A stretch of DNA of 64,000 bases from Macrotrachela quadricornifera (Eukaryota > Rotifera > Eurotatoria > Philodinida > Philodinidae): NCBI GenBank assembly GCA_022393335.1, contig JAJEKB010021738.1, positions 62,001-126,000 on the forward strand. The letters are read 5' to 3'. The translations under genes and the position numbers were made by a program. Below the pieces are notes generated by a model, which was not told where the DNA came from, ran no database searches, and saw nothing but the letters and a program-made list of their open reading frames with translations. Positions within the stretch are counted from its first letter, which is position 1, and the number at the start of each line of letters is the position of its first letter. Shown one piece after another: positions 1 through 64,000 of this stretch.

Positions 1-890
1 TTCGTATCATCGATATCCAACGGCATAATAGATTTTAAATATTTCGTTATACATCGATCATATTCAAAATTTTTTATTACAAGTTTAAATTTAAGAGCTG
101 CAGCAAATGAACACATAGTAAATAAATAATTTTGATCAATTGGTACATGTTCAAGTACGAGATTGTGATTTGAACATGAATTTGTTTTTTCAAAAATAAC
201 AGTACGTTCAAATTCGTTTACAATTAGTGAACGATATTTGGACACGAGTTGAATTATTGCTTGCACAGATACTTCAAGTGCAACATATTTCAATTTACAT
301 TGAGTATGATTTGGTAGTGCACAACAACTAAGTATAGCATGTATTGTTAAACCAACACTCGATATATCGTTTTTAGTTCGACAGTCGAATTCAAAATCAT
401 CATTACAATCATTCCAATTCTTTTTCAAATAAAATGTTTCACCATCATCACTATGACCACCAAGTGTAACAAGTAAGTTGAGATGAAGATCAATTGGACG
501 TTGAGTAAATTGACAACCACCAAGTTTAACACAACGTACACTACCATATGTTAGTAAAGTATTTCCAGCTACATCAATACTAGCTCGACTAAATGATGCT
601 GAAGTTAAATCAGTTAATTTATATCCATTTGGTATAATGGTTAATGATCGATAATTATGAAAATAAAGGTCGGCTACATTATCCTCATCGATCCATTGCA
701 AAATACGTGCTACATCATAAGAGATGTTTTCATAAAATCCATCTTTAAAACAAACCACTTGCCGTAAACTAATTGCAGCAAAAAGAAGATGAACACAAGC
801 ATTTTTGTCTGATGGAATATAAATGGTTTTCAGAACGTTTTCATTTTTCCATGAGTGATTTTGTCTAATTATTAATTTTGATGGCGTCAT
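1..890 (-). CDS. murA: MurA-like UDP-GlcNAc enolpyruvyl transferase (3' end off window)
   Basis: MurA transfers enolpyruvate from PEP to UDP-GlcNAc, the first committed step of peptidoglycan precursor synthesis. From the ATG at 890 the frame is open for 296 codons to the left edge; bacterial MurA is about 420 aa, so the last third is missing. Family landmarks are visible: Lys-Asn at residues 29-30 (SDKNAC), matching the catalytic Lys22-Asn23 region; R102 in SRASID; and GGCQFTQRPIDLH at 124-136, which keeps the PEP-binding Cys (C126) and the RPxDLH signature. PIDQNYLFT near residue 265 matches the DRIETGTF region with its catalytic Asp. The RPxDLH signature argues against EPSP synthase. An in-frame TAG lies just upstream of this ATG, but that TAG is inside a putative 57-nt intron. 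Splicing it out fuses this frame to the MurB exon at 951-2009. The sequence is divergent, so activity is uncertain. Confidence 0.82.
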   Translation of the reverse strand, partial: MTPSKLIIRQNHSWKNENVLKTIYIPSDKNACVHLLFAAISLRQVVCFKDGFYENISYDVARILQWIDEDNVADLYFHNYRSLTIIPNGYKLTDLTSASFSRASIDVAGNTLLTYGSVRCVKLGGCQFTQRPIDLHLNLLVTLGGHSDDGETFYLKKNWNDCNDDFEFDCRTKNDISSVGLTIHAILSCCALPNHTQCKLKYVALEVSVQAIIQLVSKYRSLIVNEFERTVIFEKTNSCSNHNLVLEHVPIDQNYLFTMCSFAAALKFKLVIKNFEYDRCITKYLKSIMPLDIDDT

Positions 891-893
891 AGT

Positions 894-950
894 CTAAAAT
901 AATATAATACTGTATGAGCATATTTGATTTAAATATTTTATAAAGCATAC
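894..950 (-). other. Putative 57-nt intron joining MurB to MurA
   Basis: On the minus strand MurB codon 353 (AAA, ending at 951) is followed by GTATGC, and 57 nt later TATTTTAG precedes ACT-ATG-ACG of MurA. Both sides are phase 0, so removing this stretch joins the two frames exactly. The length matches other introns in the window (51-64 nt). Left unspliced, the TAG at 896-894 ends MurB. The splice is inferred; no transcript data are available. Confidence 0.7.
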
Positions 951-2009
951 TTTAATTGGTTTAAACATTCGAATGATATTAACTTCTGCTTCTAATCGGA
1001 TATGAAATCGCTTTTCTACAACTGTACGAATATCTTTTGCTAATGTCCATAAATCATAACCATTACTCGATCCATTATTAATCAATACATTAGCATGAGA
1101 GTGCCAGGTACCAGCTGTACGTAGATAATAACCTTTCCGATCACATTTTTCAATGAGCCATCCAGCTGGAATTTTTATTTGATTATCACTCATTCGATAA
1201 TGGGTAATCTCAGTTTGTTCTTGTTGCATAATCTTTTTGTATTCATCGTTTGTTATTATTGGATTCAGAAAGAAACTCCCAGCATTTCCATAATCTAACC
1301 ATGGATCAGGTAATTTTATGGATCGACGTTTTAGAATTCTGTTAATGATATTTTTGCTTTGTAATTCAACAGATTCTGGCGATGATCTAAGTAATTCAAA
1401 AGTCACATGTGTAATTATATATCGCATATGGCCAAGATTATCCTTATCCTGTTTAAATCTGCTTTTACGATAGGCAAACTGGCATGCATCTTTATCAAAT
1501 ATAACGAAACATTTATTCTGAGTATCGAATGCTTGACATTCGAGAAATATTTCACTTAATTCTGCTCCATATGCACTTATATTTTGAATTGGTGCAGCAC
1601 CAACAGTACCTGGAATACCAGCTAAATATTCCAAACCTTTGTATCCATGTTGAACCGTATAATTTATTAAATCCGTCCATTTTTCACCAGCACCAACTTT
1701 CAATATAATCTTGCTGTTGTCATCGTCATTTGTGACAATAGTAAAACCTTTTATGCACATATGAATTATAAGTCCATTAAAGAATTTGTCAACAAAAAGC
1801 GTATTGCTTCCCTCGCCAAGAACAAGTTTATGTTCGATATTTATAAAATATGGATCATGAAAAATTATCAACAAATATTCTTCTTTCTCAATTTTAACAA
1901 AAAAACGAGCAATTACATCAAAGCCAAACGTATTTAGCTTTCTAAGAGATACATTTTTTTCTGAACGAAGCGTTTTCGTATCTTTCAGTGTCGAATTACT
2001 GTGATGCAT
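951..2009 (-). CDS. murB: MurB, UDP-N-acetylenolpyruvoylglucosamine reductase (type I)
   Basis: MurB reduces UDP-GlcNAc-enolpyruvate to UDP-MurNAc with FAD and NADPH, acting directly after MurA. The first 353 codons span the whole enzyme. FAD-binding landmarks are NTFGFD (26-31), LGEGSNTLF (64-72), GAGEKW (106-111) and GIPGTVGAAPIQNISAYG (131-148). The catalytic set is present: Y180-R181 in AYRKSRFK, Ser245 in GNAGSFFLNP, and Glu342 in LEAEV. The AGWLIE and HxxxxLIN blocks place it in the E. coli-like type I class. Only about ten residues follow the usual end before the predicted splice donor at 950, so the exon ends where the domain ends. A read-through version would add a 17-residue hydrophobic tail and stop at 894. 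The start at 2009 is the first ATG ahead of the NTF motif; extra 5' exons cannot be excluded. Bacterial origin by transfer is inferred from the family's normal restriction to bacteria and some plants and algae. Confidence 0.93.
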
Positions 2010-14644: not shown

Positions 14645-15047
14645 TGTGAAACACGATCTGAAAGAGTGTTGAAGTGCTTAGGGGTAGAAATTTGCACCCC
14701 CCCACACCAGACCGTGACAGACAAACTCTATGACCTTTGTCACAGACCGTGATCGACAGACAAGATTAGCATCACAGACCGTGACCGACAGGGAAGAGTA
14801 GCATCACAGACCATGATCGACAGACAAGATTAGCATTACAGACCGTGACCGACACCTAAGAGTAGCATCACAGACCGTGACCGACAGGCAAGATTAGCAT
14901 CACAGACCGTGACCGACAGCTAAGAGTAGCATTACAGACCGTGACCGACACCTAAGAGTAGCATCACAGACCGTGACCGACAGGCAAGATTAGCATCACA
15001 GACCGTGACCGACAGGCAAAATTAGCATCACAGACCATGACCAACAG
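14645..15047. mobile_element. Minisatellite-bearing element, copy A (right end lost)
   Basis: Starts TGTGAAACACGATCTGAAAG and continues AGTGTTGAAGTG...GGGGTAGAAATTTGCACC, matching the start of the element at 60161. About ten copies of a 32-bp unit follow (CAGACCGTGACCGACAGGCA plus AGATTAGCATCA), with unit starts at 14743, 14775, 14807, 14839, 14871, 14903, 14935, 14967, 14999 and 15031. The inverted right terminus found in copy B is absent here; the array runs straight into an ADP-ribosyltransferase exon. Confidence 0.8.
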
Positions 15048-15050
15048 GCA

Positions 15051-15158
15051 ATCCTGGACGAAGAGGAAGTTCTTCTACCAGCTGGTGTCTTATTTAAAGT
15101 CTTAAATGTCGAGGAAGATAAGAATGAAAAAATGTGGACCATACACTTAGAAATTTAA
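15051..15158 (+). pseudogene. 3' fragment of an arginine ADP-ribosyltransferase gene
   Basis: The plus strand encodes a 35-residue tail (LDEEEVLLPAGVLFKV, then MWTIHLEI and a stop). This is the usual C-terminal end of NAD-arginine ADP-ribosyltransferases, where E-x-EVLLPPGT-x-F-x-V is the last strand after the catalytic R-S-EXE core. The catalytic exons are absent; the fragment begins within the last copy of the 32-bp minisatellite. It could be the last exon of a gene disrupted by the repeat element. Family assignment rests on one short motif. Confidence 0.5.
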
Positions 15159-20124: not shown

Positions 20125-23100
20125 ATGCAAATGTCTGAATCGACTAGTGAACTCAAGGCCTCAAATTCTGAATTACCTAAACAAGATATTGCAGGTAACG
20201 GTTTTCTAACCAATTGTGTCAAGTAACAAATTAGCTTTTTTTTTTTCAAAATTAGAAAGTGTTATGAACAGTATAATACCTGAATCATGGTCATTAGAAC
20301 AAGTAACTCAATGGCTTTCATCAATCCATTTAGAAAAATATATTGAGAAGTTTAGAGGTAAGTTTTCTTCCATGTTTTTTGTAAAATCTAGGAGTATTCA
20401 AGCAGTAAAAAACAAAAAACTAAATCTTCAAAATGTGTGGTTTTAGTGTTTTCAAAAACAATTTTTGGAATAAAAGAGCGGTGTCATAATCCCATTACAC
20501 CGAGTATCTACATCCAAATAGTAGAATACTTAGCAGGCTGCTCTATTACTTGGGATGTATGACTCAAAGGACGATGACTTCGTCACCTTTGTCGATCACT
20601 ATATGTATTTCTAAATTGGTACAGTTTGAGTTGAGTTGTTTTATTACTCATAGGGTAATGGATGTATCTGCATGAAACGGTGAGATTATATTACACTCAT
20701 TGTTGATTCTTGCGGAAGTTTGAAATGTTGATTTTGTTCGCATTTTTGTGCAACTCTAAGTTAAATTTATTCTGTTTCTTACTATGATGTTGGCTCTCTC
20801 AATGTACGCTATACTCTTTAGTGTCAAACTGATTACATCCTCACTTGCTAGTATGAACATTGGTCGCGATAATAAGATAAGCTATTTAGTTGAATTCTAA
20901 AACGTTAACTTTTTAGATTTCTCTTTGTGCGTATGTATCTTTCTTTCTAGAGTTCTACGAGATTTCATGTTAAGCGAATTATCTGATATGTTGCCCTAAT
21001 TATTATACTAGTTGAGTACGTTTCTCTGTCCATGTAAATATTTTTTGCTTCAAAACGCGTCTCAACAAGTTTCATATAAAAGCTCAAAATTTTGAAAAAA
21101 ATATTCAAATCATCTCAGATTCGAACTTCATCACCATCATCAATATTTTTCGATGAGTTTACCCTAAGAGGGTCAGGGTGAGTTGAACGCATTTAGTAAA
21201 CAAAATATATTTGAACGCGCTAAATGTATTTTGAAAACATGAGATGCGGTTAATTTTTGTTTTGGTCGTATTTGAACACTTTCAATCAAAGTCTTATTTA
21301 ACTCATTTAAACGTGATTTCAACATGGAACGTGTTGAAGCGCTATCAATATTTTTTTTACGATTTCGTTTCAACGCGTCACATGCAAAAACTACATTCAG
21401 ATACGTTTCAAAATTTTTCTAACTGTGTCTCAACGCATTCCATGCTTGCATGGGTTTCATTTAATATGAGGATCATTTATTTTCGGATGATGAGGTTGTT
21501 ACACTAGAACGACTAAAAATGCCCAACTTTTAGAATATATAGTTACTTTGCGGAGTAATGATGTCTTTACTCACTTTACTCGATTACTCTATGGGCTATT
21601 CTGATATTTAGCTCTCCATACTTATGCTATAATAATATGACACCTATAGTTTTACCTAACTTTTTTTTTTTTTAAACAAAGTAGTTATTTTATCAGTTCT
21701 TTTTAGAAAATGAAATTGATGGTGCATTATTAATGAGTGACGGTTTAGATGACACACTATTAAAAGAATTAATTCCTCCATTGAAATGTCGAATAATTTT
21801 CAATAGTGAACGTAAGAAACTTAGGTAATGATTTTCACATCATTAAACTTTCTCTTGTTATATTTTGAATAAAAACTCTTGTTTTAGATCAAGACATCAG
21901 CAGAAATCGACAAAATCAATATCAAATACAAATGATATTCATCCTATATTAAATTCAATCGGCGCATTTAAAATGGTAAAATATAAAAGTTTAAGTCAAA
22001 GAAAGTATTCTTTTACAGATATATATTTTTATTTATTAGGAATCATTGCCATCAAAAAATAATAACCAGTTTCTAGATGCTAATGACACACAAAATGAAA
22101 ATATACAAAGTTACAAATCTTTACCAACAGGTAATTGAAGATCTTAATTTACTTAAGTACGGATTACAGTGCATTCCTTTTGAATATTTATAGGGAGAGT
22201 TAGAGAAACATGCGTCAAAAGAAAACGAGCAACTTCTTTGCCTCTATTTTAAATGATACATAGTGCGAATAATTAAAACAGTTACTCTTTTTATTCAGAG
22301 AAAACTTCGGTTAAAAAGAAGTAGATCAGACTAATCAACCTAAAAAAAACAGTTTCAGTTCCTTTTTTTTTTAAGTTATTGAACTCTATTGATCAGTTAT
22401 TCGTGTCTTTTCTATAACTTCAACATAATATTTATTTCGTTTACAACGAAGAGTTCCGAGACGACAATTTTTCACCTAATCTTACCGTCTAATTGTTTGA
22501 CTTGCTACCAACAATAACTATGTCACGATCCATGATTTAATTTTGCAGAACTTATACTAACACCTTTCATTAAAATAGTTTAAAATATAAAATTATCAAC
22601 ATACTTCACATGATAGAAACGAGAGGACAGCTTCAAACATAAATTCTATTCTAATACCTTGTCAGGTTTTTGAAAACTTCGAATTTACATAAAAGATACA
22701 ACTGAAAAAAATTTTGTACAATAAAGAAAATTTATTAGATCGATCAGATCTCATCCCCAACTGAAAAACTTTGGAATTTGATCCAGTCTATAGGTATTCT
22801 ATCATTAAGAAAACTATTGGCTCAAAAGTGTCTAATCACTTGAGAACTTTTTCCCCATTGAACATCAACATTTTAAATCATTCAGAATATCATTCTTTAC
22901 ATTCATACAATACAATGGCAATAGAGTACTATTATAATCATATCTCTTTCGGTTATAAAATCTTCTGCAGATTTAAAGATAATAAAGATCGACTTTTAGA
23001 ATGTTTCAGGTATGAACAGGAAATGGCAAGTTCCAAAATTAGTTCATCTAATTATCGAAAGTTAGCACTGATTGTCAGTAATGGTAAATATAATCTACCA

Positions 23101-25162
23101 GATAATCGACTCAATCATGTTATCGAAAACGTTAAAGTTCTGAGTGATTTGTTAAAGACAATCGGTTTCAATGTCACAACAGCATATGACTTAAAACAAT
23201 CCGAGATGACTACCACTATTATTGAGTTTTCTAAAATGGTCAACAAAGATGATTTAGTTTTATTCTACTTTTCTGGTCATGGATACCAGATTAAAGATAA
23301 AAACTATTTAATACCTGTTGATGATATCCATATAGAAGATGATAGAGACATTGAAAATTTTGCTATTGACTTTGAACAAATAGTAGAGCGTCTAGTAAAG
23401 CGTACTCGATTATGTGTAAATATATTTATCTTGGATTGCTGTGGAACATACTTATTAAATAGCATATCAACATCAAATTGTAAGTACTATCGTCATTGAC
23501 TCTGCAAAAGTAATATTCGTTTTTATATAGTTACAATCAACAATCAAGGTTTTCATGAAATGAGATCAATAAATAGTGCATTCATTCAGTTTGCTTGTGC
23601 TGCTAATGAAGGAGTTTGTAATAATTTATTCACTAAACACTTACTGAAAAATATCACACAAGAAAATGTTAATATCTCTGAACTTTTTCGATGGATTGCA
23701 GTCGATGTACAAAGAGAAAGCAATAACAAACAACGGCCATTATCTATAAATGGATTACGTCATTATCAGAATGTTTATTTGAATGAAGTAATTCCACCTG
23801 TTCAAAGTAAGTCTAGAAGAGTTTACATGAGATTTTTAAAATAGAAAGCGAACATAACTATAGTCATATGGATGAGGAGTATGATATTTAAGAATCAATT
23901 TTTATATTAATTAAAATTTTTTTTTCGAATTTACAGTATGGGATGAAGTCGAACAACATGAAATACAATCAATATTGAAAAAACAAGAAGAACTACGAAC
24001 TTGCTATGACAACTATCCAGATATTAATGATGTTCTCAATCGAGAAACGAGAAATATTAAAAGTGCGGACGAACTTACACGATCTATATTATCTAAATCC
24101 CCATCAGGAAATCTGACAGAAACGGATACACTATGTCATGTAATAAATAATATGATTGGAAATGGAAATCAAGAATGTCTTTTTTTCGACTCTCGTCAAG
24201 GTGTAAATCTTCATGATGCATCTTCAAATTTAGCTGATCTTAGTGTTACAGATAGACCATTTGTTTTGAAATTAAACAATAGTGATGATTTTATCAATAA
24301 AAATGATTTAAAAGATGAACAATATGAGACAAAAATTGTTAAAACATTAAATCGTGTAATTGAACAAAAGCAATCACATCCAATTATTAAGGATATACTT
24401 GAACGATTATCAAAAGCACATGATATTGACAAAAAAAACATTGTTTTAAAAAATGTCTATTTAGGATCATTTAATATAGTGTATACTGTTATAGATTTAG
24501 CAATTAATGCATTTAAAAAATTAACTGACCTTTCAAACAAATTAAAAGAACAATTCAAACAATTTAAAGCAGCAAAAATTCATCCACTTTTATATCGGCC
24601 ATCATTTGATATAGCACAATTTGATGCTCGTGGAAATAAAACTTTTTCTGATAAGGTAGGACCATATGAAGTTGGTCCACCAGGACGAACTAAATCGTAT
24701 ATTCAACCAGCTGGTTGGATAAGATATGGATTAAAAGTTTTGGGTAGATATTCTAATGATGAATGGTTACATCCATTTGGACATCCTGGAAATTGGTACA
24801 GAGCTTTTCATGGAACGGGAAATGCAAAACCTGTAGATTTCTGTAGTCTTCATGCTTCATTTGATGCTCAATACGCTCCTATTGATGCTGCTTCTAATAT
24901 TCATAAAACTGGATTTCGTGAAGCAAGAGTCAATTTTCATGGACCAGGTGTTTATTGTTCGCCAAAACCGACTTTTGTAGAGAAAGGTTATGCTGGAAAA
25001 GCTACATTAGATACAAAGACGGGTAGAAAAACTTTTAAACTTATGCTACAAGTGGCTGTCAATCCTGATGGTGTCAAGTTCGCCACTGAAGATATATGGA
25101 TTGCTCAACATTCGCAAGATATTCGAACTTATGGAATACTCATTAAAGAAGTTTTACCTTAA
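20125..25162 (+). CDS. SAM domain + caspase-like + PARP/ART-like multidomain protein
   Basis: Nine-exon model, about 820 aa. Exons: 20125-20194, 20256-20357, 21707-21824, 21888-21975, 22040-22130, a tentative micro-exon 22299-22320, 23010-23479, 23531-23806 and 23937-25162; phases agree throughout. Exons 2-3 encode a SAM domain (WSLEQVTQWLSSIHLEKY, then IDGALLMS and LKELIPPL). The caspase-like domain (C14) starts RKLALIVSNGKYN, with the catalytic His in YFSGHG and Cys in ILDCCG; exon 8 supplies the second half (IQFACAANEG, SELFRWIAVDVQRES). The last exon has a linker module ending VYLGSFNIVYTV and a C-terminal domain with YRAFHGTG, GPGVYCSPKP, FKLMLQVAVNPDG and YGILIKEV. That order (HGT, GxY, late Glu) resembles PARP/ART folds; this is inference. 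SAM domains mediate oligomerisation, so a death-signalling or immune effector role is likely but unproven. Residues before the caspase core are uncertain because the micro-exon is a prediction. Confidence 0.75.
20358..21706 (+). other. Long intron (1,349 nt) within the SAM domain
   Basis: Donor GTAAGT and acceptor CTTTTTAG, phase 1. The other resolved introns of this gene are 51-130 nt. The inside carries loosely repeated phrases such as TTGAACGCG, TTTCAACGCG and CTCAACGCATTCCATG at 21180-21450, so an old repeat insertion is likely. Confidence 0.6.
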
Positions 25163-42655: not shown

Positions 42656-44881
42656 TTAAGGTCGTGTTACTGTAAGATTTTTAAAGATAACATTTGAATT
42701 ATCTGCAAATATTCCCCAAGAATTTTTTCCTGCATTATAAATTCTAGCTGTTAAAGCTACTTTATGATCTATATAAGTAATAACCATAGAATTTTCTATG
42801 ATAATATGGATTATATAATCAGTATTTGGAATAAATTTATATTGTATATCAATTGTAGATATAGTTGTACTAGTTAAAGATGAACGATTAATTTTATCAA
42901 AACTAAATCGATGTTGAGAAGGAATAAAACGTAAACTATAAAATTGATTATATCCATCACATACATTTATCATAAAACCAAAATCTTTAATTGAACGTGT
43001 ATATGATATAATTGTACTAATTTTATATCGAATTAAATTTATTGGATTAAAAAGAACATTTGTTATTTCACTATTTAATAAACTTGATAAAGAATATGAT
43101 AATATATCTGTTGAAAGATCTTGTACAATACCCCATTGACTATGTTTTATAATAGGTTGATTAAATATTTCGAAATAATTTTTAATTGTATGTGGTATTG
43201 TAATAGCAAGATCTTTTGAATATTCTAATTGATATAATTTATGTATAATTAAATTTCCACCCCATTTCCATTGTCCATAATCATTATTATTTTCATATTG
43301 ATTTGTCCATCCAAATATATAATAATCATTATAATTATCTCGAATAACTTTTGCACCATAAAGACCATAAGCATCAAAACGATCTATTAAGTGTTCTGTT
43401 GGTTTTTCCCATGGTCCATATAATGATAAACTTTTTCTATAATAAACATTTTTTGTATCAATATCAGAAAATATAAGATAATAAATATTATTTATTTGAA
43501 ATAAATCTGGTGTTTCCATCATATAAAAATATGTTGAATCACCATCATAAAGAATTCCTTGATATAACCAATTATATAAATCATAAGATGTATAATAAAT
43601 AATAACACCACGAGTTGTTCGTGCTGATATAATTAATGTATATTTTTTTAAATTTATATCATAAAAAACAAATGGATCACGAAAATTATTTTCTTCATCA
43701 AAATTTTTTTCAATTGGTGGATAAATTGTTTTAAAATTTAAATCTTTTATAAACTTATTATTTAAATTTAATGAAGTAGCTAACATAATACCTTCTTTTG
43801 TTTTTATACAATATGAAGGTGAATTTGGATTATGACCAGTATAAAATGCATAATATATATTATCTTTTTTTATAATAGAACCTGTACCAATAGCATAATC
43901 TTGTGAACATTCATTAGTATTAGAATTTAATAATTCATCCTGATTTATTAATGAATAAGAATAAAAATTATTTGTTTTTAATCCATACCATGGATGTCGT
44001 TGATGATTAAAATCATTCCAAATATCTTTTAAATATAATATATATAATTGATTTAATTCATAATCAAAATAAGGCATTACATCACCAATAGGACTATTAT
44101 CATCAATAGATAATGAATAAATTATATAATTATTATCGTCTGATGGTTTATTACAAATAAGATCATTTTTATTCAAATTATTATCATTGAATTCTATTAA
44201 TTATTAAAAAAAAAACATTATTTTTAAACTATATTAACCCTGGATAAATGCACCAGTTGATCTTTCCAGTATATGCAGTCTTTTATTTCTCTTTTTCTGG
44301 CGTGTATCATTACATAGACTAAACTGATATAGAAGACAGAGATAAATTACTGAATGATGTCAATAGTTTAGATAACGATTTTAGTAAAATAAAATTTAAA
44401 TCAAATGTTAAGTTTCAGAAGAAGTAGGAAATCATTAAGGAAGTGACGCCAGCTTCGGATTTATTGCTACGAAATTTTTAGCTTCATAGTTTACGAAACT
44501 AATTGATATGCAGGAGATAAGTAGATAACCAAAAGCTATTCGATAGAAACTAATTACTAATGAAGCAATTTTTCTATACAGATTCTTCTTAAAATATAGT
44601 ATTACATCTTCACGAATGAATTAACTTTTAAATTACTATAGACATTTGAATTTTGTTTTTTTTTCGATATCTTCTGCTTATATATAGAATAATTTCATTA
44701 CTTTTTTCTGATCTTTCCCATAATGTTGATTTATTGGATGGAAATTCTAAATTATTTATTATTTATTACAATATTATATTTGAAAAAAAACTAAATTACT
44801 TGAATTTTCAATTGAAATACAATAAATAAATAATAATATTTGATTTAATATCAAAAATAAAATTGATACTTGCATTATCAT
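42656..44881 (-). CDS. Secreted GH32 beta-fructosidase/levanase-like enzyme, two exons
   Basis: GH32 enzymes cleave fructosyl bonds in sucrose, inulin or levan. Exon 1 (44881-44800) encodes a signal peptide (MIMQVSILFLILNQILLFIY). A 606-nt intron (GTAATT...AATAG) leads in phase 1 to exon 2 (44193-42656); the total is about 539 aa. The start at 44881 is chosen because the main frame has no upstream ATG and this exon supplies both a start and a leader. Counting from the TTG at 44176, the nucleophile region is GDVMPYF (Asp32), the RDP motif is at 166-168 (FRDPFVF), and the acid/base Glu221 is in METPDLF. IGTGSII, AFYTGHN, YYLIFSD, YYRKSLSLYGPWEKP and YIFGW follow as in bacterial GH32 proteins with a C-terminal beta-sandwich (about 350-506). 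Metazoan GH32 genes are rare and usually acquired; codon use is extremely AT-rich. The substrate is not deducible. Confidence 0.85.
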
Positions 44882-45300
44882 TCTTTATTAAATGAAAAAC
44901 AAAAATAATATACAGTACCTTTCATAAAAATTATTTTATTTGCTTTTGCTTTTTTTTTTCTTAAATCGAATATTAACATTGTTCTCATATTTCTCTATTA
45001 ATTATACGTAGAGATAAACTATTTCTATCATATCCATATCAAAAGAAAGTTTCTTTTAGACAGATATTTTTCTCTATAAAAAGGTCAATTAACAATAGCT
45101 ATGTAAAATATAATTAAATTATTAGAATATAACACAATTCAATATTTAACAAGATTTTATTTATAAAAATTTAATCGATTTTGATGAAACATATAACCTA
45201 TTATCGTATGAATAAGAAAGATTTTTTTTGTTCGTATGTATATATATAAATTATTTTCATTCATGTGTTATCGATTGAGTAAGTAATAAGGAAATCAATC
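44882..45300. promoter_or_regulatory. Shared upstream region of divergent GH32 and spermidine-synthase-like genes
   Basis: 420 bp separate the GH32 start (44881, minus) from the next start (45301, plus), so both promoters must lie here or in nearby introns. Very AT-rich; a TATATATAAATT lies at about 45239, some 60 bp ahead of the plus-strand start. No specific operator is recognised. Confidence 0.4.
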
Positions 45301-46269
45301 ATGCATATCATAGTTCGTATGTTAATAAAATTGATTCGTATATTTTGCTTTATTTTTAATTTAATAAAAATCTATTTATTTACATTTCATCGTGAAACAA
45401 TAATAACAAAAGAAAGATCAAAATATAATAAATTAATAATAATATCAAAATGTGGTTCGAAACGTTTAATGCGTTTTAATAGTTTATCAAATGGTTCACA
45501 ATCTCAAATTGATTTAAATCGAATAGATTATCCATGTGTTGAATATATTCAATTAATGATAATATCATTAATATATTATCCATATATATTAAATGAAAAA
45601 AATATTTTAATTATTGGTCTTGGTGGTGGAACACTTCCACGTGCAATAAGAAAACTTTATCCAATGTCATTTATAACAATAATTGAAATTGATTCAATTG
45701 TTAATGAAATGGCTAAAAAATATTTTTATTTTAAAGAAGATTCTAGAATGAAAGTATATATTACTGATGGAAGAAAATTTTTAGAAAATTTATCAAATAT
45801 AATAAATTATGATATTATTTATTTAGATGCATATGATTCAATAAGTGGTTTACCATCTCATATGAAAACACAAGAATTTTTTATTCAATTAAAAAATTTT
45901 TTAAATATCAATGGTGGTTTATTAATATTAAATCTTGTTTGTATTTATCAATCATTTAAAAATGTTTATCAAACAATTCAATCAGTTTTTGGACAAACAA
46001 ATTTACTTACATTTCGTTCAACAGATTTTTTTAATATTATTCTTATTGCTTCATCTTCTATTGAATATTTTCCAACAATTAATTACCAATCAAATATTAT
46101 TGATCATATACAACAAAATTTATTAATTAATGTTAATAATTTATTGAAAAAACAACAAAGAAAAATTTCGAATCAAAATTTATCATTAGATATTTATAAA
46201 GATAATACAACAAATATTCATCAAAATGAACAAGATATATCATTATTAGAATTCATTGATATTGTTTAA
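45301..46269 (+). CDS. Spermidine-synthase-like (Rossmann methyltransferase-fold) protein, membrane-anchored
   Basis: Intronless, 322 aa. Residues 7-29 are a hydrophobic anchor (MLIKLIRIFCFIFNLIKIYL), absent from true cytosolic spermidine synthases. The catalytic-fold core is clear: ILIIGLGGGTLPRAI (102-116) is the nucleotide-binding glycine loop; TIIEIDSIVNEMAKKYF (126-142) gives the acidic residue for the ribose; YITDGRKFL (153-161) binds the adenine; and YDIIYLDAYDS (170-180), followed by GLPSHMKTQEFF, is the active-site segment. True aminopropyltransferases carry a different, conserved gatekeeper set, so this resembles the broad spermidine-synthase-like group common in bacteria and may be a methyltransferase. 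The C-terminal 60 residues are polar and Asn/Gln-rich. Codon bias is strongly AT-rich. It is divergent to the GH32 gene. Confidence 0.8.
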   Translation: MHIIVRMLIKLIRIFCFIFNLIKIYLFTFHRETIITKERSKYNKLIIISKCGSKRLMRFNSLSNGSQSQIDLNRIDYPCVEYIQLMIISLIYYPYILNEKNILIIGLGGGTLPRAIRKLYPMSFITIIEIDSIVNEMAKKYFYFKEDSRMKVYITDGRKFLENLSNIINYDIIYLDAYDSISGLPSHMKTQEFFIQLKNFLNINGGLLILNLVCIYQSFKNVYQTIQSVFGQTNLLTFRSTDFFNIILIASSSIEYFPTINYQSNIIDHIQQNLLINVNNLLKKQQRKISNQNLSLDIYKDNTTNIHQNEQDISLLEFIDIV

Positions 46270-57707: not shown

Positions 57708-58619
57708 TCATACTAAATATAAGAAAAAAAAAATTTGATCTAAATTTCGTAAATTTCGATATTTCCATATAAAAATAATTAACAAAATGCTAATAGATAT
57801 AAATATTTTTGGACTTTCATTAATTTTATTTAAAATAAATCCATCAATTGAATGCCATGATCTACCAGTATAGTGAATAATATAATTCATTGTTTCATTT
57901 TCTGATAGAATCCATAAAGAATTATTTTTATTATTTATTAATTTAATATATTTTCTAAGAGTACGAGTTAAAAAAATTGATCCAGTTGAAAAAACTTCTA
58001 AATAAGGAAGTATATATATTCTTTTATAAAATTTTGGTAAGACAATATCATGAAGTATTAAATTAATTATATATGAAGATTTTTGTGCAATTAAAAAATG
58101 ATTTATTAATGATAAACCATTTGATGAACGTGGAATTAAAAATGATACATTTGATAAAAGAAGTTTTTCAATATTTTTTGAACATGGAAATACATCTAAA
58201 TCAGCATATATTCCACCTTGATTATGAAGAATTATTAATCGACCTAAATCAGCACGTTGAATTGAATATGGATAAGATTTATATATTGTATATAAATATT
58301 TATATTCAGTTTTAGTAAATAATTCTTCTATATCTTTATCTGTCCATAAACGAATTTTATAATTAGGATAAAATTGTTTCCATTGTAAATGAGAATTATT
58401 AATTGGATATGTTAATAAATTTTGATTTTTCCACATTTGATGAATAATTCGTGGTATTGTACTAGTAGTTTTATTTAAATTAATATTAAATAAATTTGAA
58501 TCAATTCCTTGAAATTCTTCTATAATTGTTATTAAAATTAATAAAATTTGCCATAATAAAATAAATATTCCAATTAATAAAATTATCCATAAAAAAAGTT
58601 TTTTTCCAATACTAAACAT
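57708..58619 (-). CDS. GT32-type glycosyltransferase (OCH1/SUR1-like), membrane-bound
   Basis: An intronless 303-aa protein. Residues 8-33 form a signal anchor (LFLWIILLIGIFILLWQILL) typical of Golgi type II enzymes. The domain has the GT32 signature in order: IPRIIHQMWK (55-64), the YPNYKIRLWTDKDI block (84-97), and RADLGRLIILHNQGGIYADLDV (122-143), where D140-L-D142 is the metal-binding DXD of the sugar-nucleotide site. GRSWHS near 250 recalls the WH motif of mannosyl-inositolphosphoceramide synthases (SUR1/CSH1) and alpha-1,6-mannosyltransferases (OCH1). A second hydrophobic segment (IFISISILLIIFIW, about 271-284) near the C-terminus is shared with the SUR1 type. Donor and acceptor cannot be read from the sequence. 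A fungal or bacterial source is plausible; the codons are extremely AT-rich. Confidence 0.88.
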   Translation of the reverse strand: MFSIGKKLFLWIILLIGIFILLWQILLILITIIEEFQGIDSNLFNINLNKTTSTIPRIIHQMWKNQNLLTYPINNSHLQWKQFYPNYKIRLWTDKDIEELFTKTEYKYLYTIYKSYPYSIQRADLGRLIILHNQGGIYADLDVFPCSKNIEKLLLSNVSFLIPRSSNGLSLINHFLIAQKSSYIINLILHDIVLPKFYKRIYILPYLEVFSTGSIFLTRTLRKYIKLINNKNNSLWILSENETMNYIIHYTGRSWHSIDGFILNKINESPKIFISISILLIIFIWKYRNLRNLDQIFFFLYLV

Positions 58620-59564: not shown

Positions 59565-61217
59565 CAGTCCACACATATTGAAAGTATACCCTTCGAGTTT
59601 TTTATTTTTATCTATTAACCTACTATATATAGGAAGAAAGCCCGAAATGCGCTACATCTTTTGGTGTATTTACATTGATCATAGAATGCAGTTTAAAGTA
59701 TAAAAAGTTACTTTTTATTTTTTCACACGGTGTTCATAATGTTATAACATTTTTTATTTCGCATATGTTAGGTAGTATTACACGTTCCATAGCATATGTG
59801 TTATTAGTAACTGTTGTTCATTCTTCACTTTTGCGTTCTCGTTATGCATGATATATGATCTTGTACATTCTCTTCTTTCGTTTTGTGTTCTCTTAACATA
59901 TGTGATTAATGTATTCACTCTCTCTCTCTCTTTGTGATTCTCGGCGTTATCTCTCCCATTTTCACCTGTATAAGGCGTTGCTCATTTCGAAATAAACATG
60001 CTTTTCACTAAGAATCATCCATCTTCACCAAGATTGATTCTTTCTCTCTGCAAAGCCTCACAGCATATATCTCGGCTTAGGTAAATGATGCAACGTTGAA
60101 TTTTTTTCCAAATGATGCATCGTGAAAGGGTCTACAAAAGCTGCATAATTGGATTCTTTTTGTGAAACACGACCTAAAAGGAGTGTTGAAGTGTATAGGG
60201 GTAGAAATTTGCACCCACCACCCCCGGCCCCCCCCACAGACGTGACAGACATGCTTAGCAACGGCAGATCACAGACGTGACAGACATTCTTATTAACGAT
60301 GTATCAAAAGCATAGGAAATATGCTTAGTAACGACATATCACAGACGTGACAGACATCCTTAGCAACGGGATGTCACATACGTGACAGACAGTATCACAG
60401 ACGTGACAGACATCCTTAGCAACGAGACATCACAGACATGACAGACAGACTTGATGACCCCATCACAGACTGTTACCGACACTTTAATTAATTAATTAAA
60501 TAGCGTCTGATTAATTAATTAGTGGGTAATTCATTACTCATCAAAGACTGTCACAGACCGTGACCGACTCCTTAGCTACGCCTCTTTCAGTCCCAGACGG
60601 TGACCGACAGTCTCACACAGGGTAGTAGATAATGTCGTGAATAGTATCTCAGACCATGAGAGACATAGAACTAAACTATTTCTATGTCATTAGTCACAGC
60701 AGCTATATCGTGTTTCACATTTTAATCCCGTAGGGATTGCGCTAACAGCTTTTTATCTGTTCTAATGGTTTTTCTGATATTTACAATGAATAAATGAAAT
60801 ATCAGTGTCATTTCACATCATACTGGAACAGTTGTAAGATTTTTTTGATCGACATATATCTCGACTTGAAAAAATGACGAAATATAAAATCTTTTCTTTA
60901 ACAAAATATGTCGTCAAAAGATTTACAAAACTTGTATCGATGAAGTCTTATAGTGAATCAGAGAAGTCATCGAAACGTTTTCTATGCCGAGATATACGCC
61001 AAATAAAACATTTTACACCAGCACGGATACTCAAAATTTGGAAAAAGAAAAAATCTCACTTTTTTCTGATATACTTTTTATACTCTGAACTGTATTTTAT
61101 GGTCAATGTAAATATATCAAAAGATGCAGCACATTTCGAGCTTTCTTTCTATATATAGTAGGTTGATAGATAAAAAACAAAAAACTTGAAGGGTATACTT
61201 TCAATGTACGTGGACGG
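59565..61217. mobile_element. TIR element, 1.65 kb, TA-flanked, with a nested insertion
   Basis: TA|CAGTCCACACATATTGAAAG at the left and CTTTCAATGTACGTGGACGG|TA at the right. The inverted match extends about 150 bp inward (AGTATACCCTTCGAGTTTTT with AAAAAACTTGAAGGGTATAC; ACATCTTTTGGTGTATTTAC with the right-arm GTAAATATATCAAAAGATG). The ends and TA target fit a Tc1/mariner-like superfamily. No transposase is seen; the middle holds the minisatellite element at 60161-60719. Confidence 0.8.
60161..60719. mobile_element. Minisatellite-bearing TIR element, copy B (complete)
   Basis: Starts TGTGAAACACGACC and ends TCGTGTTTCACA, giving a 12-bp terminal inverted repeat, flanked on both sides by TTTT (a possible target duplication). 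Its first 80 bp match copy A at 14645, including GGGGTAGAAATTTGCACC and a C-rich tract (60216-60236). The inner array uses ACAGACGTGACAGACAT-type units of about 35 bp here, rather than the 32-bp CAGACCGTGACCGACAG unit of copy A, but switches to CAGACCGTGACCGAC near 60550. A TTAATTAATTAA stretch lies at about 60485. Confidence 0.82.
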
Positions 61218-61501: not shown

Positions 61502-63672
61502 TTAAATATGTTCTTGTCCAAGTTTTAATGCATCTTCATATGCTTTGATTGTTCGAATTAATTTATCTCGTCGAATTGTTCGATCATTAGGTTCTTTCAT
61601 AAAACGAATTAAATCTGTTGGGGAAACTGAACATGTTAAATATTGATCAATAATAAGTGCACATCGATTAATAAATTGATAATAAAATACTTGACAAATA
61701 TTATCAATAACACGTTTTTGTACAACCTTAATTAAATATATATATATAATTGTTATTAAAATACAAAGGAAAAATACTTTTCTTTCTTTTGAATATGATT
61801 CTAGAGCTATTTGTATAGCAGGTGCTGCTCGAGCTTCATTAGAATCATATTTAATTGTATCATTTATTGTTAAATTAGATGAATTTGAAATAAGATTTGA
61901 TGCTTTTGTTGATAAAATTGTTTCATTAAAATTTTCATCATTTAATTGTTATGTTAATTCATTAACTATTTTCATATATTCTTTATTTAATGTAAATAAT
62001 CTTCATTCCATATTAAGTATTTCATTAATTCTTTCATTAGTTCGTTGTTTAGCTAAATCAATTTGTTGAATAAGAATATCTTTAAGTTGTTCAATAGGAC
62101 GTTTATAATCTTTATCAAATATATCATAAAATAATTTTAATAAAAATTCTTTAATATAATTATAAATTTTATTCATTAATGATAAACAAATATTTGGTAA
62201 ATATTCAAATTCTTGATGAAATAAATATTCAATTATTTGAAAATTTGGAAAATTAGGTTATGATACACCAGCTGATTGTTCAATTATTTTCATAACATAT
62301 TTTTTATAATCATTAGAAAGAAAATTTGAAAATTTATTTATAAATTCTTGTTTGAAATTCATATTGAAATTTATATATATGATAAGCAATATGATCATCA
62401 TTTTCTTTTGATAAAATTAATATATCTTTATTATTTAAATTAGATTTTGTTTTTAAAGATAATTCATCATCATTATTATTATCAATATTAATTCTTGTTC
62501 GAAAATCATAATTACCATTAACTTTTGAATGAATATTTTCACGTAATTTATTTATCATTATTTGAAATTTCATCCAATAATCATGTTCGGTAGGTAATGC
62601 AATAGGAATAGTTCTTAATTCTTGTTGTTTTTGACGAATTTGTTTTTTTAATTTATCAATTGTTTCAAGAAATGTTGAACGTATTCGATTATGTTGAATT
62701 AAAGCTAGTTTTTTTATTAATTGATCAATACCTTTATATACATTAGGTAAATATTGAAATGCTTTATTATGTTTAAGAAAAAAAATCTTTTTCACGTTGT
62801 TTCATTTCTTCAAATGATATATTTGTATCAATTTCTTCTAGATTTCTATTAAGTACAGCAACACAACCCAATTGAAGTTTCATTGAACCTAAACCTTCTC
62901 CTTGAAGTTTTTCACTAATACCTTTATCATATTTATCTATTTTTGAACAAGCTATAACTTGTCGTTCACAATTTGGATCAAAATCTTTTGCTAATTTCAT
63001 TGATTCTGATGTTGTAAAATCAACAGATGATGGAATAACATGTAATACAACCTTTATATATTAAAATAAAAAATAAATTCATTTTTATTATAAAATAACT
63101 TACAGCAGTTGATGGTTCAATATACTTATTAATTAAGGTTACAATTTATTCATATATATTTTCAACTTGTCCAGGTAAAGAATTTCGAGTTATACCTGGT
63201 AAATCAATAAGTGCTAAATCGTATGGTATATCACGTTTATAAACCGTTAAATAAATTGGTTCTTGACTTACATTTACTCCATTACCTGCAATTTCATCTG
63301 TTAAATGAGTTACTTCATTAGCAATTTCATTAAAATTTTCAATATGTTTTATTTGATCATTTGTACTTGTACCTTTACGAATAGTAGCATATTCATTAAT
63401 ATTTGTAGATTTCATTTGTAATTCTAATGGACATCGAGTACAAATATTTTTTGTGCTCGTGGTAATTGTATACCAGAAATAGCTTCAAGTACAGATGATT
63501 TACCTACAGATTGATCACCAACAACAACAATTTCTGGTAAACGAATTTTTTCATTATGTAAAATTTCTCGCATACGATCAACTGCAGATAAAAGTTTACG
63601 AAATTCTTCATTATTAAGTTCATCGATTAACATTTTTGATCTTAACAATATATTAAAATATTTTAATGACAA
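61502..63672 (-). pseudogene. Dynamin/Mx-like GTPase pseudogene
   Basis: Dynamin-family large GTPases self-assemble on membranes; Mx-type members act in antiviral defence in vertebrates. The order is intact: P-loop GDQSVGKSSVLEAISG with LPRA near 63500, switch/G3 LIDLPGI, G4 CSKIDKYDKG, a middle/stalk region with YLPNVYKGI, and a GED-like tail ending KLGQEHI before a stop at 61502. It is broken in many places: one-base shifts at homopolymers near 63446 and 62780, and in-frame stops near 63145, 62264, 62010 and 61950. Two introns remain (63055-63104 and about 61732-61785). Two of the shifts could be assembly errors at A runs, but the separate stops argue for a genuine pseudogene. Confidence 0.85.
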
Positions 63673-64000
63673 ATAATAAATGAAATAACTTCAGGACAGA
63701 TCTTCTTATATTACTATTATCATAATAAAGTGCTAAGATAACACATTATATATAATGTCATGTTTTATTTTTTTATTCTGCAGACATAAAAACATAGTTG
63801 CAATATTAATAAATATTCAAGATAGTATATATTACTACTCAACAAACATAAAAGTATTCTATAGTTTGTTACTAAAGTATTGATAAAGTTTGAGTCTTCA
63901 ATATAAGTTTTCATTTAGTATTGGTATATTCCATAAAACGACGGGTTTGATCTTTATCTTGTATTAAAGAAAATTAAAAGTGATGACTTAGCCTGAAGCC
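63673..64000. other. Right end of window, nothing recognised
   Basis: AT-rich sequence upstream of the dynamin pseudogene; no coding frame or repeat seen. Confidence 0.35.

Follow-up and report, generated by a model that had tools for sequence, protein, structure and literature searches.

A MurB–MurA-like fusion gene with a putative intron in bdelloid rotifers, probably encoding a bifunctional enzyme for UDP-MurNAc synthesis

MurA produces UDP-N-acetylglucosamine-enolpyruvate from UDP-N-acetylglucosamine (UDP-GlcNAc) and phosphoenolpyruvate (PEP), and MurB reduces this product to UDP-N-acetylmuramate (UDP-MurNAc) with NADPH through FAD. These are the first two steps towards peptidoglycan precursors. 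The sugar donor UDP-GlcNAc is made by animals, and muramic acid is described in textbooks as a hallmark of bacteria. Fusions between enzymes of this pathway are reported from bacteria, namely MurB/MurC in Verrucomicrobium spinosum and MurC/Ddl in Chlamydia trachomatis (PMC4803751). According to PMC5664097, the mealybug Planococcus citri has horizontally acquired murA-murF and ddlB, which are at separate loci and are proposed to mediate crosstalk among its bacterial endosymbionts. The plastids of mosses and conifers are reported to use the Mur pathway or are inferred to do so (PMC9434261, PMC12681378). Here we describe a gene from the bdelloid rotifer Macrotrachela quadricornifera in which a type I MurB is joined to a MurA-like enolpyruvyl transferase. 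It is found in a stretch of 64,000 nucleotides (the window; contig JAJEKB010021738.1, positions 62,001 to 126,000, assembly GCA_022393335.1). We consider it quite probable, from sequence comparison, that the gene was acquired horizontally, is intron-bearing and codes for a fused bifunctional enzyme that converts UDP-GlcNAc to UDP-MurNAc.

The gene is encoded on the reverse strand. Exon 1 (951..2009, complement strand) codes for a complete type I MurB (UDP-N-acetylenolpyruvoylglucosamine reductase) of 353 codons, as judged by its translation and by family models, and its frame stays open upstream as far as 2054. It is followed by a putative intron of 57 nt (894..950, complement strand), which is in phase 0, has spliceosomal-type ends (GTATGC...TTTTAG) and contains an in-frame TAG. 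Exon 2 (3..893, complement strand; 297 codons) codes for the MurA-like domain and is truncated by the window edge. The C-terminal third of MurA falls beyond the window and is known from relatives only, so that the term “complete” applies to MurB alone. There is no stop codon between the MurB exon and the 57-nt stretch. When the stretch is excised, a joined frame of 650 codons without stop results; when it is retained, the protein ends at the TAG 18 residues further. The GC content of the stretch is 17.5%, compared to 32% for exon 1 and 31% for exon 2. The G+C fractions at codon positions 1, 2 and 3 are 0.44, 0.32 and 0.21 in exon 1 and 0.44, 0.33 and 0.14 in exon 2. The initial annotation had proposed a complete type I MurB exon ending at codon 353, with MurA continuing in phase behind a TAG-containing GT...AG stretch. 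The translation and a PRK00046 match above cut-off bear out the former, and the stop-free joined frame bears out the latter.

A protein search with the spliced MurB-MurA product was run against 5.8 billion proteins. The 7994 candidates that share most words with the query were scored, yielding 1148 matches, and the best 120 of these were analyzed. They are headed by three bdelloid proteins having both halves: P0003 from Rotaria sp. Silwood2 (partial, 705 aa; 73% identity over 98% of the query), P0004 from Rotaria sp. Silwood1 (794 aa; 72% identity over 98%) and P0005 from Adineta steineri (796 aa; 66% identity over 98%). MurA and MurB Pfam domains occur together in none of the other 117 rows. 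All three fused proteins, which are gene models and not transcripts, are already in public databases, and the one from Adineta is named “UDP-N-acetylmuramate dehydrogenase” in UniRef. Exon 2 is 66-76% identical to their second halves. The MurB-MurA join is genuine, as the identical arrangement in other bdelloids excludes a chance origin. This upholds the earlier claim that an animal holds two bacterial-type enzymes in one reading frame, both the fusion and the donor position being kept in other bdelloids. Rotaria belongs to the order Philodinida and Adineta to the order Adinetida, so the fusion is recorded in both bdelloid orders. As far as named records reach, it thus appears to be general in bdelloids, and it would predate the Philodinida/Adinetida split unless it was moved later.

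Public contigs carry unspliced halves of further bdelloid-like sequences, including P0007, P0009, P0011 and P0130; outside the named species, the assignment of rows to bdelloids is based on the trees described below. The longest contig on record has 21,612 bases for both P0007 and P0009, and 3,605 bases for both P0011 and P0130. These equal figures suggest that the P0007/P0009 halves lie together, as do the P0011/P0130 halves. Within bdelloids, the two halves diverge in step. The identities for MurB and MurA are 70 and 76% between the window and P0003, 86 and 86% between P0003 and P0004, 71 and 75% between P0003 and P0005, and 70 and 73% between P0007/P0009 and P0003.

The intron position was analyzed in the protein frames. 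The MurB frame of four sequences (window, P0007, P0010 and P0011) enters a Val codon (GTN) six residues past a conserved Ile-Ile-Arg, and beyond this codon the frames end after 16 to 61 residues. In the relatives, this Val codon is taken to indicate the donor site. The annotated proteins P0003 and P0005 switch to the MurA exon precisely at the place of the window's donor. Because three MurB frames other than that of the window read into Val at this site, the intron position looks shared with other bdelloids. The median intron of four bdelloids is reported as 55-67 bp (PMC5916493). The 57-nt stretch has GT-AG ends, keeps the phase, is of typical length and is at a position common to relatives. 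We thus regard it as a putative spliceosomal intron in a foreign gene.

The first half is readily classified. Exon 1 matches the NCBIfam model PRK00046 with 319.1 bits (cut-off 277; residues 16-347, model positions 4-336 of 343), which identifies it as a type I MurB, and TIGR00179 with 205.1 bits (cut-off 144.5). It has Pfam matches to MurB_C and FAD_binding_4, and the match to E. coli MurB (1mbb) scores 182.4 bits. In the alignment, the window has the FAD motif GxGSN as GEGSN and equivalents of the active site residues Ser229, Glu325 and Arg159 (E. coli MurB numbering). All seven bdelloid-like MurB rows have residues equivalent to R159, S229, N233 and E325; the equivalent of K217 and the GxGSN motif are each found in six, P0011 being the exception for both. 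The MurB half is predicted to fold as MurB. A different MurB fusion was also observed: in rows of 592-598 aa (e.g. P0052, P0059 and P0070), MurB is joined to a domain with the metallo-beta-lactamase fold (PF12706, PF00753). This is a separate fusion that recurs in sequences which are probably bacterial.

The second half is more divergent. Exon 2, which is partial, has no Pfam match and scores 51.8 bits against PRK09369 (cut-off 297) and 44.2 bits against the second MurA model, TIGR01072 (cut-off 392.7). The full-length relative P0006 reaches 97.1 bits against PRK09369 (model positions 14-417 of 419) and 78.1 bits against TIGR01072, also below the respective cut-offs. The PRK09369 scores of P0130 (111 bits) and P0004 (99 bits, over its residues 362-792) are likewise far below 297. 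The longer relatives match most or nearly all of the PRK09369 model. As the family cut-offs are not reached, we classify the second half as MurA-like, and it would work like a MurA. The MurA landmarks named in the initial annotation were all found (Lys-Asn, the Cys loop with Cys126 as numbered from the Met of the exon, and RPxDLH). Catalytic residues are numbered as in E. coli MurA. In the alignment of bdelloid-like MurA rows, K22 and N23 have equivalents in 11 of the 11 rows covering them, and R91, C115, R120 and D123 in 14 of 14. For D305 and R331 this holds for 13 of 13 rows, and for D369, R371 and R397 for 12 of 12. P0129 and P0131 are absent from this alignment, and a few letters of P0007 and P0011 at MurA columns are read-through noise and were not counted. 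Exon 2 of the window spans the first six of these residues (K22, N23, R91, C115, R120 and D123); the others were read from relatives. The MurA half is predicted to fold as MurA.

Both halves form coherent groups in phylogenetic trees. The MurB tree, which includes 45 bacterial rows, unites the seven bdelloid-like rows in a single group (SH-aLRT 99, branch length 1.37). The sixteen bdelloid-like rows of the MurA tree are likewise united to the exclusion of its 31 bacterial rows (support 100), and the two sets are 5.5 changes per column apart (3.85 on one side of the drawing root, 1.66 on the other). The MurB tree took 45 of the 111 listed bacterial rows and the MurA tree 31 of 97, so that the bacterial samples differ. 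Both trees were made by a quick method without bootstrap and carry long-end-branch warnings (in the MurB tree, P0011 is among the sequences concerned), and the MurA tree has warnings on the letter make-up of 22 rows. The pairs of bdelloid-like and bacterial rows that were compared have 38-46% identity in MurB and 20-26% in MurA; the MurB of the window is about 40% identical to the bacterial rows compared. Of the bacterial MurA rows listed, the best have 27% identity along most of the query, and values above this are confined to short segments. A profile search with 13 MurA halves retrieved 112 proteins among 8000 scored candidates. Fifteen of these are bdelloid-like with at least 529 bits, and the next is P0132 with 97 bits. 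Some fifteen bdelloid-like MurA halves are open and alignable at 50-86% identity. When bacterial and archaeal genomes were scanned with the MurA alignment, only one of 59 pattern matches was confirmed (a Terrilactibacillus MurA at 22%), and none of three in viral contigs; both scans rely on two short peptide patterns and are weak evidence of absence. A donor lineage was not found among the rows compared, the nearest bacterial MurB row (P0012) joining the bdelloid-like rows with an SH-aLRT of 89, below the mark of 95. Non-bdelloid animals are not among the named rows listed in the protein and profile searches, in which few rows are named; this is weak evidence for the gene being confined to bdelloids. 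Because the MurA half is far from bacteria and yet changes in step with MurB within bdelloids, it may have come from an unsampled lineage, or it may have changed greatly before the spread of bdelloids and have been held since. As the same fusion exists in other bdelloids, the gene appears to have been acquired long ago and kept since, and its active sites are intact.

Several observations weigh against the reading as an intact bifunctional fusion. P0004 has two residues fewer at the join, owing either to an indel or to a difference in gene models; its join was missed by the automatic junction search and was read by eye. In the deep-branching MurB row P0011, Asn is found at the K217 position and GGGTN replaces GxGSN. 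The second codon of exon 2 is Met in the window, P0003 and P0005, so that a separate MurA start at this place is possible. Spliced-leader trans-splicing occurs in bdelloids, and the locus might thus be a two-gene operon, the 57 nt being intercistronic and MurA being translated from its own spliced-leader mRNA. This would fit with the gene-finder calls P0006, P0008, P0009 and P0123, which start with that Met, as is expected of a bacterial MurA. In all four unspliced frames (window, P0007, P0010 and P0011), however, MurB lacks a stop before the donor. The phase is kept across the 57 nt, P0004 has Ile in place of Met, and three annotated proteins are fused, albeit as gene models. We consider the operon quite unlikely and favor a single spliced gene.

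Further doubts concern substrate and constraint. The MurA half scores below the family cut-offs and is 20-27% identical to bacterial MurA, which makes altered substrate use possible. It might transfer enolpyruvate to a different acceptor, like NikO in nikkomycin synthesis, and MurB would then reduce the resulting product. We regard a different acceptor as unlikely. The window copy departs from columns that are otherwise invariant among its relatives at 15 of 148 positions in MurB and 15 of 147 in MurA, which is more than most. The corresponding figures are 2-4 of 134-136 for P0003 and P0004, 10/143 and 7/139 for P0005, 7/140 for P0007, 4/136 for P0006, 5/137 for P0008, 9/141 for P0009, 8/140 for P0123 and 32/165 for P0010. 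Relaxed constraint in the lineage of the window is therefore possible. It could even be a foreign gene that serves no function in this species and is decaying, given this faster change and a broken dynamin-like gene nearby. Against decay, the 650 codons are open, the active sites are intact in the part covered, and the relatives' MurA halves are still open, with the caveat that gene-finder rows are open by construction. We find such decay very unlikely and retain the view of a functional fusion.

Bacterial contamination, which the initial annotation had named as a concern, was assessed from the contig. Neighboring genes are of types commonly found in animals: a dual-specificity phosphatase (DSPc), a caspase-domain protein and a dynamin-like protein. 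The GC content of the exons resembles that of the contig. A second short GT-AG intron (52 nt, 63103-63052, complement strand; ends judged by eye) is found in the dynamin-like gene. The one point in favor of contamination comes from P0129. Of the relatives, this sequence is closest to the window in MurA (85%), and it is filed under an Ignavibacteria metagenome-assembled genome. Because this sequence falls inside the bdelloid-like MurA group and its contig has only 1,359 bases, it is the bacterial label that is more likely in error, and P0129 is probably a mislabelled or misbinned rotifer contig. Contamination or a chimeric assembly is exceedingly improbable and was rejected, given the fusion in three named bdelloids, the shared donor position and the animal-type flanking genes.

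Some other features of the window were noted. The dynamin-like gene (62334-63690, complement strand; Dynamin_M and a P-loop piece) has frame breaks and an in-frame stop and is either a pseudogene or affected by assembly indels. A caspase-domain open frame (PF00656) at 22765-25162 (forward strand) is followed by further frames; the region 23915-25159 has no Pfam match but contains a stretch (YRAFHGT...GPGVYCSP) that resembles by eye the end of a PARP or ADP-ribosyltransferase-like protein. A single-frame GH32 fructan-hydrolase-like gene (42659-44200, complement strand; PF00251, PF16346) is another possible bacterial acquisition, and GH32 transfer into invertebrates has been described (PMC11311677). 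Open frames of about 300 codons each code for a DXD glycosyltransferase (57711-58619, complement strand; PF04488) and a spermidine-synthase-like protein (45283-46266, forward strand; PF01564). Two distant tandem arrays (14740-15051 and 60235-60448) have units with the common words CACAGAC and GTGAC(A/C)GACA.

The proposed function is as follows. After removal of the short intron at the MurB/MurA join, one polypeptide of about 795 residues would be made, probably cytosolic, with an N-terminal MurB, almost no linker and a C-terminal MurA. The MurA domain would transfer the enolpyruvate of PEP to UDP-GlcNAc by means of its Cys loop, Lys-Asn and Arg/Asp residues, and the FAD-bound MurB domain would reduce this product with NADPH to UDP-MurNAc. 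Two consecutive steps would thus be carried out by one molecule, the chain order being reversed relative to the pathway. UDP-MurNAc might then be used for a MurNAc-bearing glycan or small molecule, or for chemistry directed against bacteria; the initial annotation had suggested that muramyl compounds may be made, sensed or recycled. We infer splicing, catalysis, substrate identity, cell location and the use of UDP-MurNAc.

It is tempting to speculate, and we do so only tentatively, that bdelloids make their own muramic acid, the fusion feeding UDP-MurNAc into a symbiont-free animal pathway. A foreign D-Ala-D-Ala ligase in bdelloids was reportedly among the findings of a 2008 report on bdelloid gene transfer. 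Adineta vaga is reported to have a foreign alanine racemase (PMC5169069, citing Flot 2013). Candidate outlets may be a glycan containing MurNAc, a muramyl compound that acts as a decoy or against bacteria, or part of a route to peptidoglycan precursors in which the foreign alanine racemase takes part. That two UDP-MurNAc enzymes were kept, fused and apparently fitted with an intron in two orders would imply a lasting use in an animal lineage. This would bear on how animals that graze on bacteria distinguish their own muropeptides from bacterial ones, and on tests in which muramic acid is accepted as proof of bacteria.

Among the papers listed in a literature search that left subscription journals mostly outside its scope, none dealt with a MurA-MurB fusion or with bdelloid MurA or MurB, as judged from titles and the opening of abstracts, and exact fusion phrases were unmatched. 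Term searches in the bdelloid papers PMC12220480, PMC4632278, PMC3499245, PMC11258130 and PMC5916493 retrieved nothing on MurA or MurB; in the text thus covered, PMC4632278 and PMC12220480 treat peptidoglycan breakdown only.

The rotifer MurB half resembles bacterial type I MurB (E. coli 1mbb, Pseudomonas aeruginosa 4jay, PRK00046) in its full-length domain, FAD motif and Ser/Glu/Arg residues, but is found in an animal, has an intron at its end and has a MurA attached at the C-terminus. Over most of its length, the MurA half has 20-27% identity to bacterial MurA (Aquifex aeolicus 2yvw, E. coli 3swd, PRK09369, TIGR01072), from which it differs by a long private branch and by its fusion behind MurB. 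NikO (4fqd) is an enolpyruvyl transferase of the same fold superfamily; its structural score is lower than that of MurA, and, to our knowledge, it has no MurB partner. The Mur genes of mosses and conifers likewise point to UDP-MurNAc synthesis, reported or inferred, in eukaryotes, but they are plastid-linked and part of a fuller pathway. Like the rotifer, Planococcus citri is an animal whose nucleus holds bacterial MurA and MurB genes, in the mealybug at separate loci; we know of no nested bacterial symbiosis like that of the mealybug in bdelloids. The V. spinosum and C. trachomatis proteins are similar in that two cytoplasmic enzymes of peptidoglycan precursor synthesis are fused. Those fusions are bacterial and involve other partners, whereas the rotifer gene joins MurB to MurA, in an animal and with a putative intron at the join.
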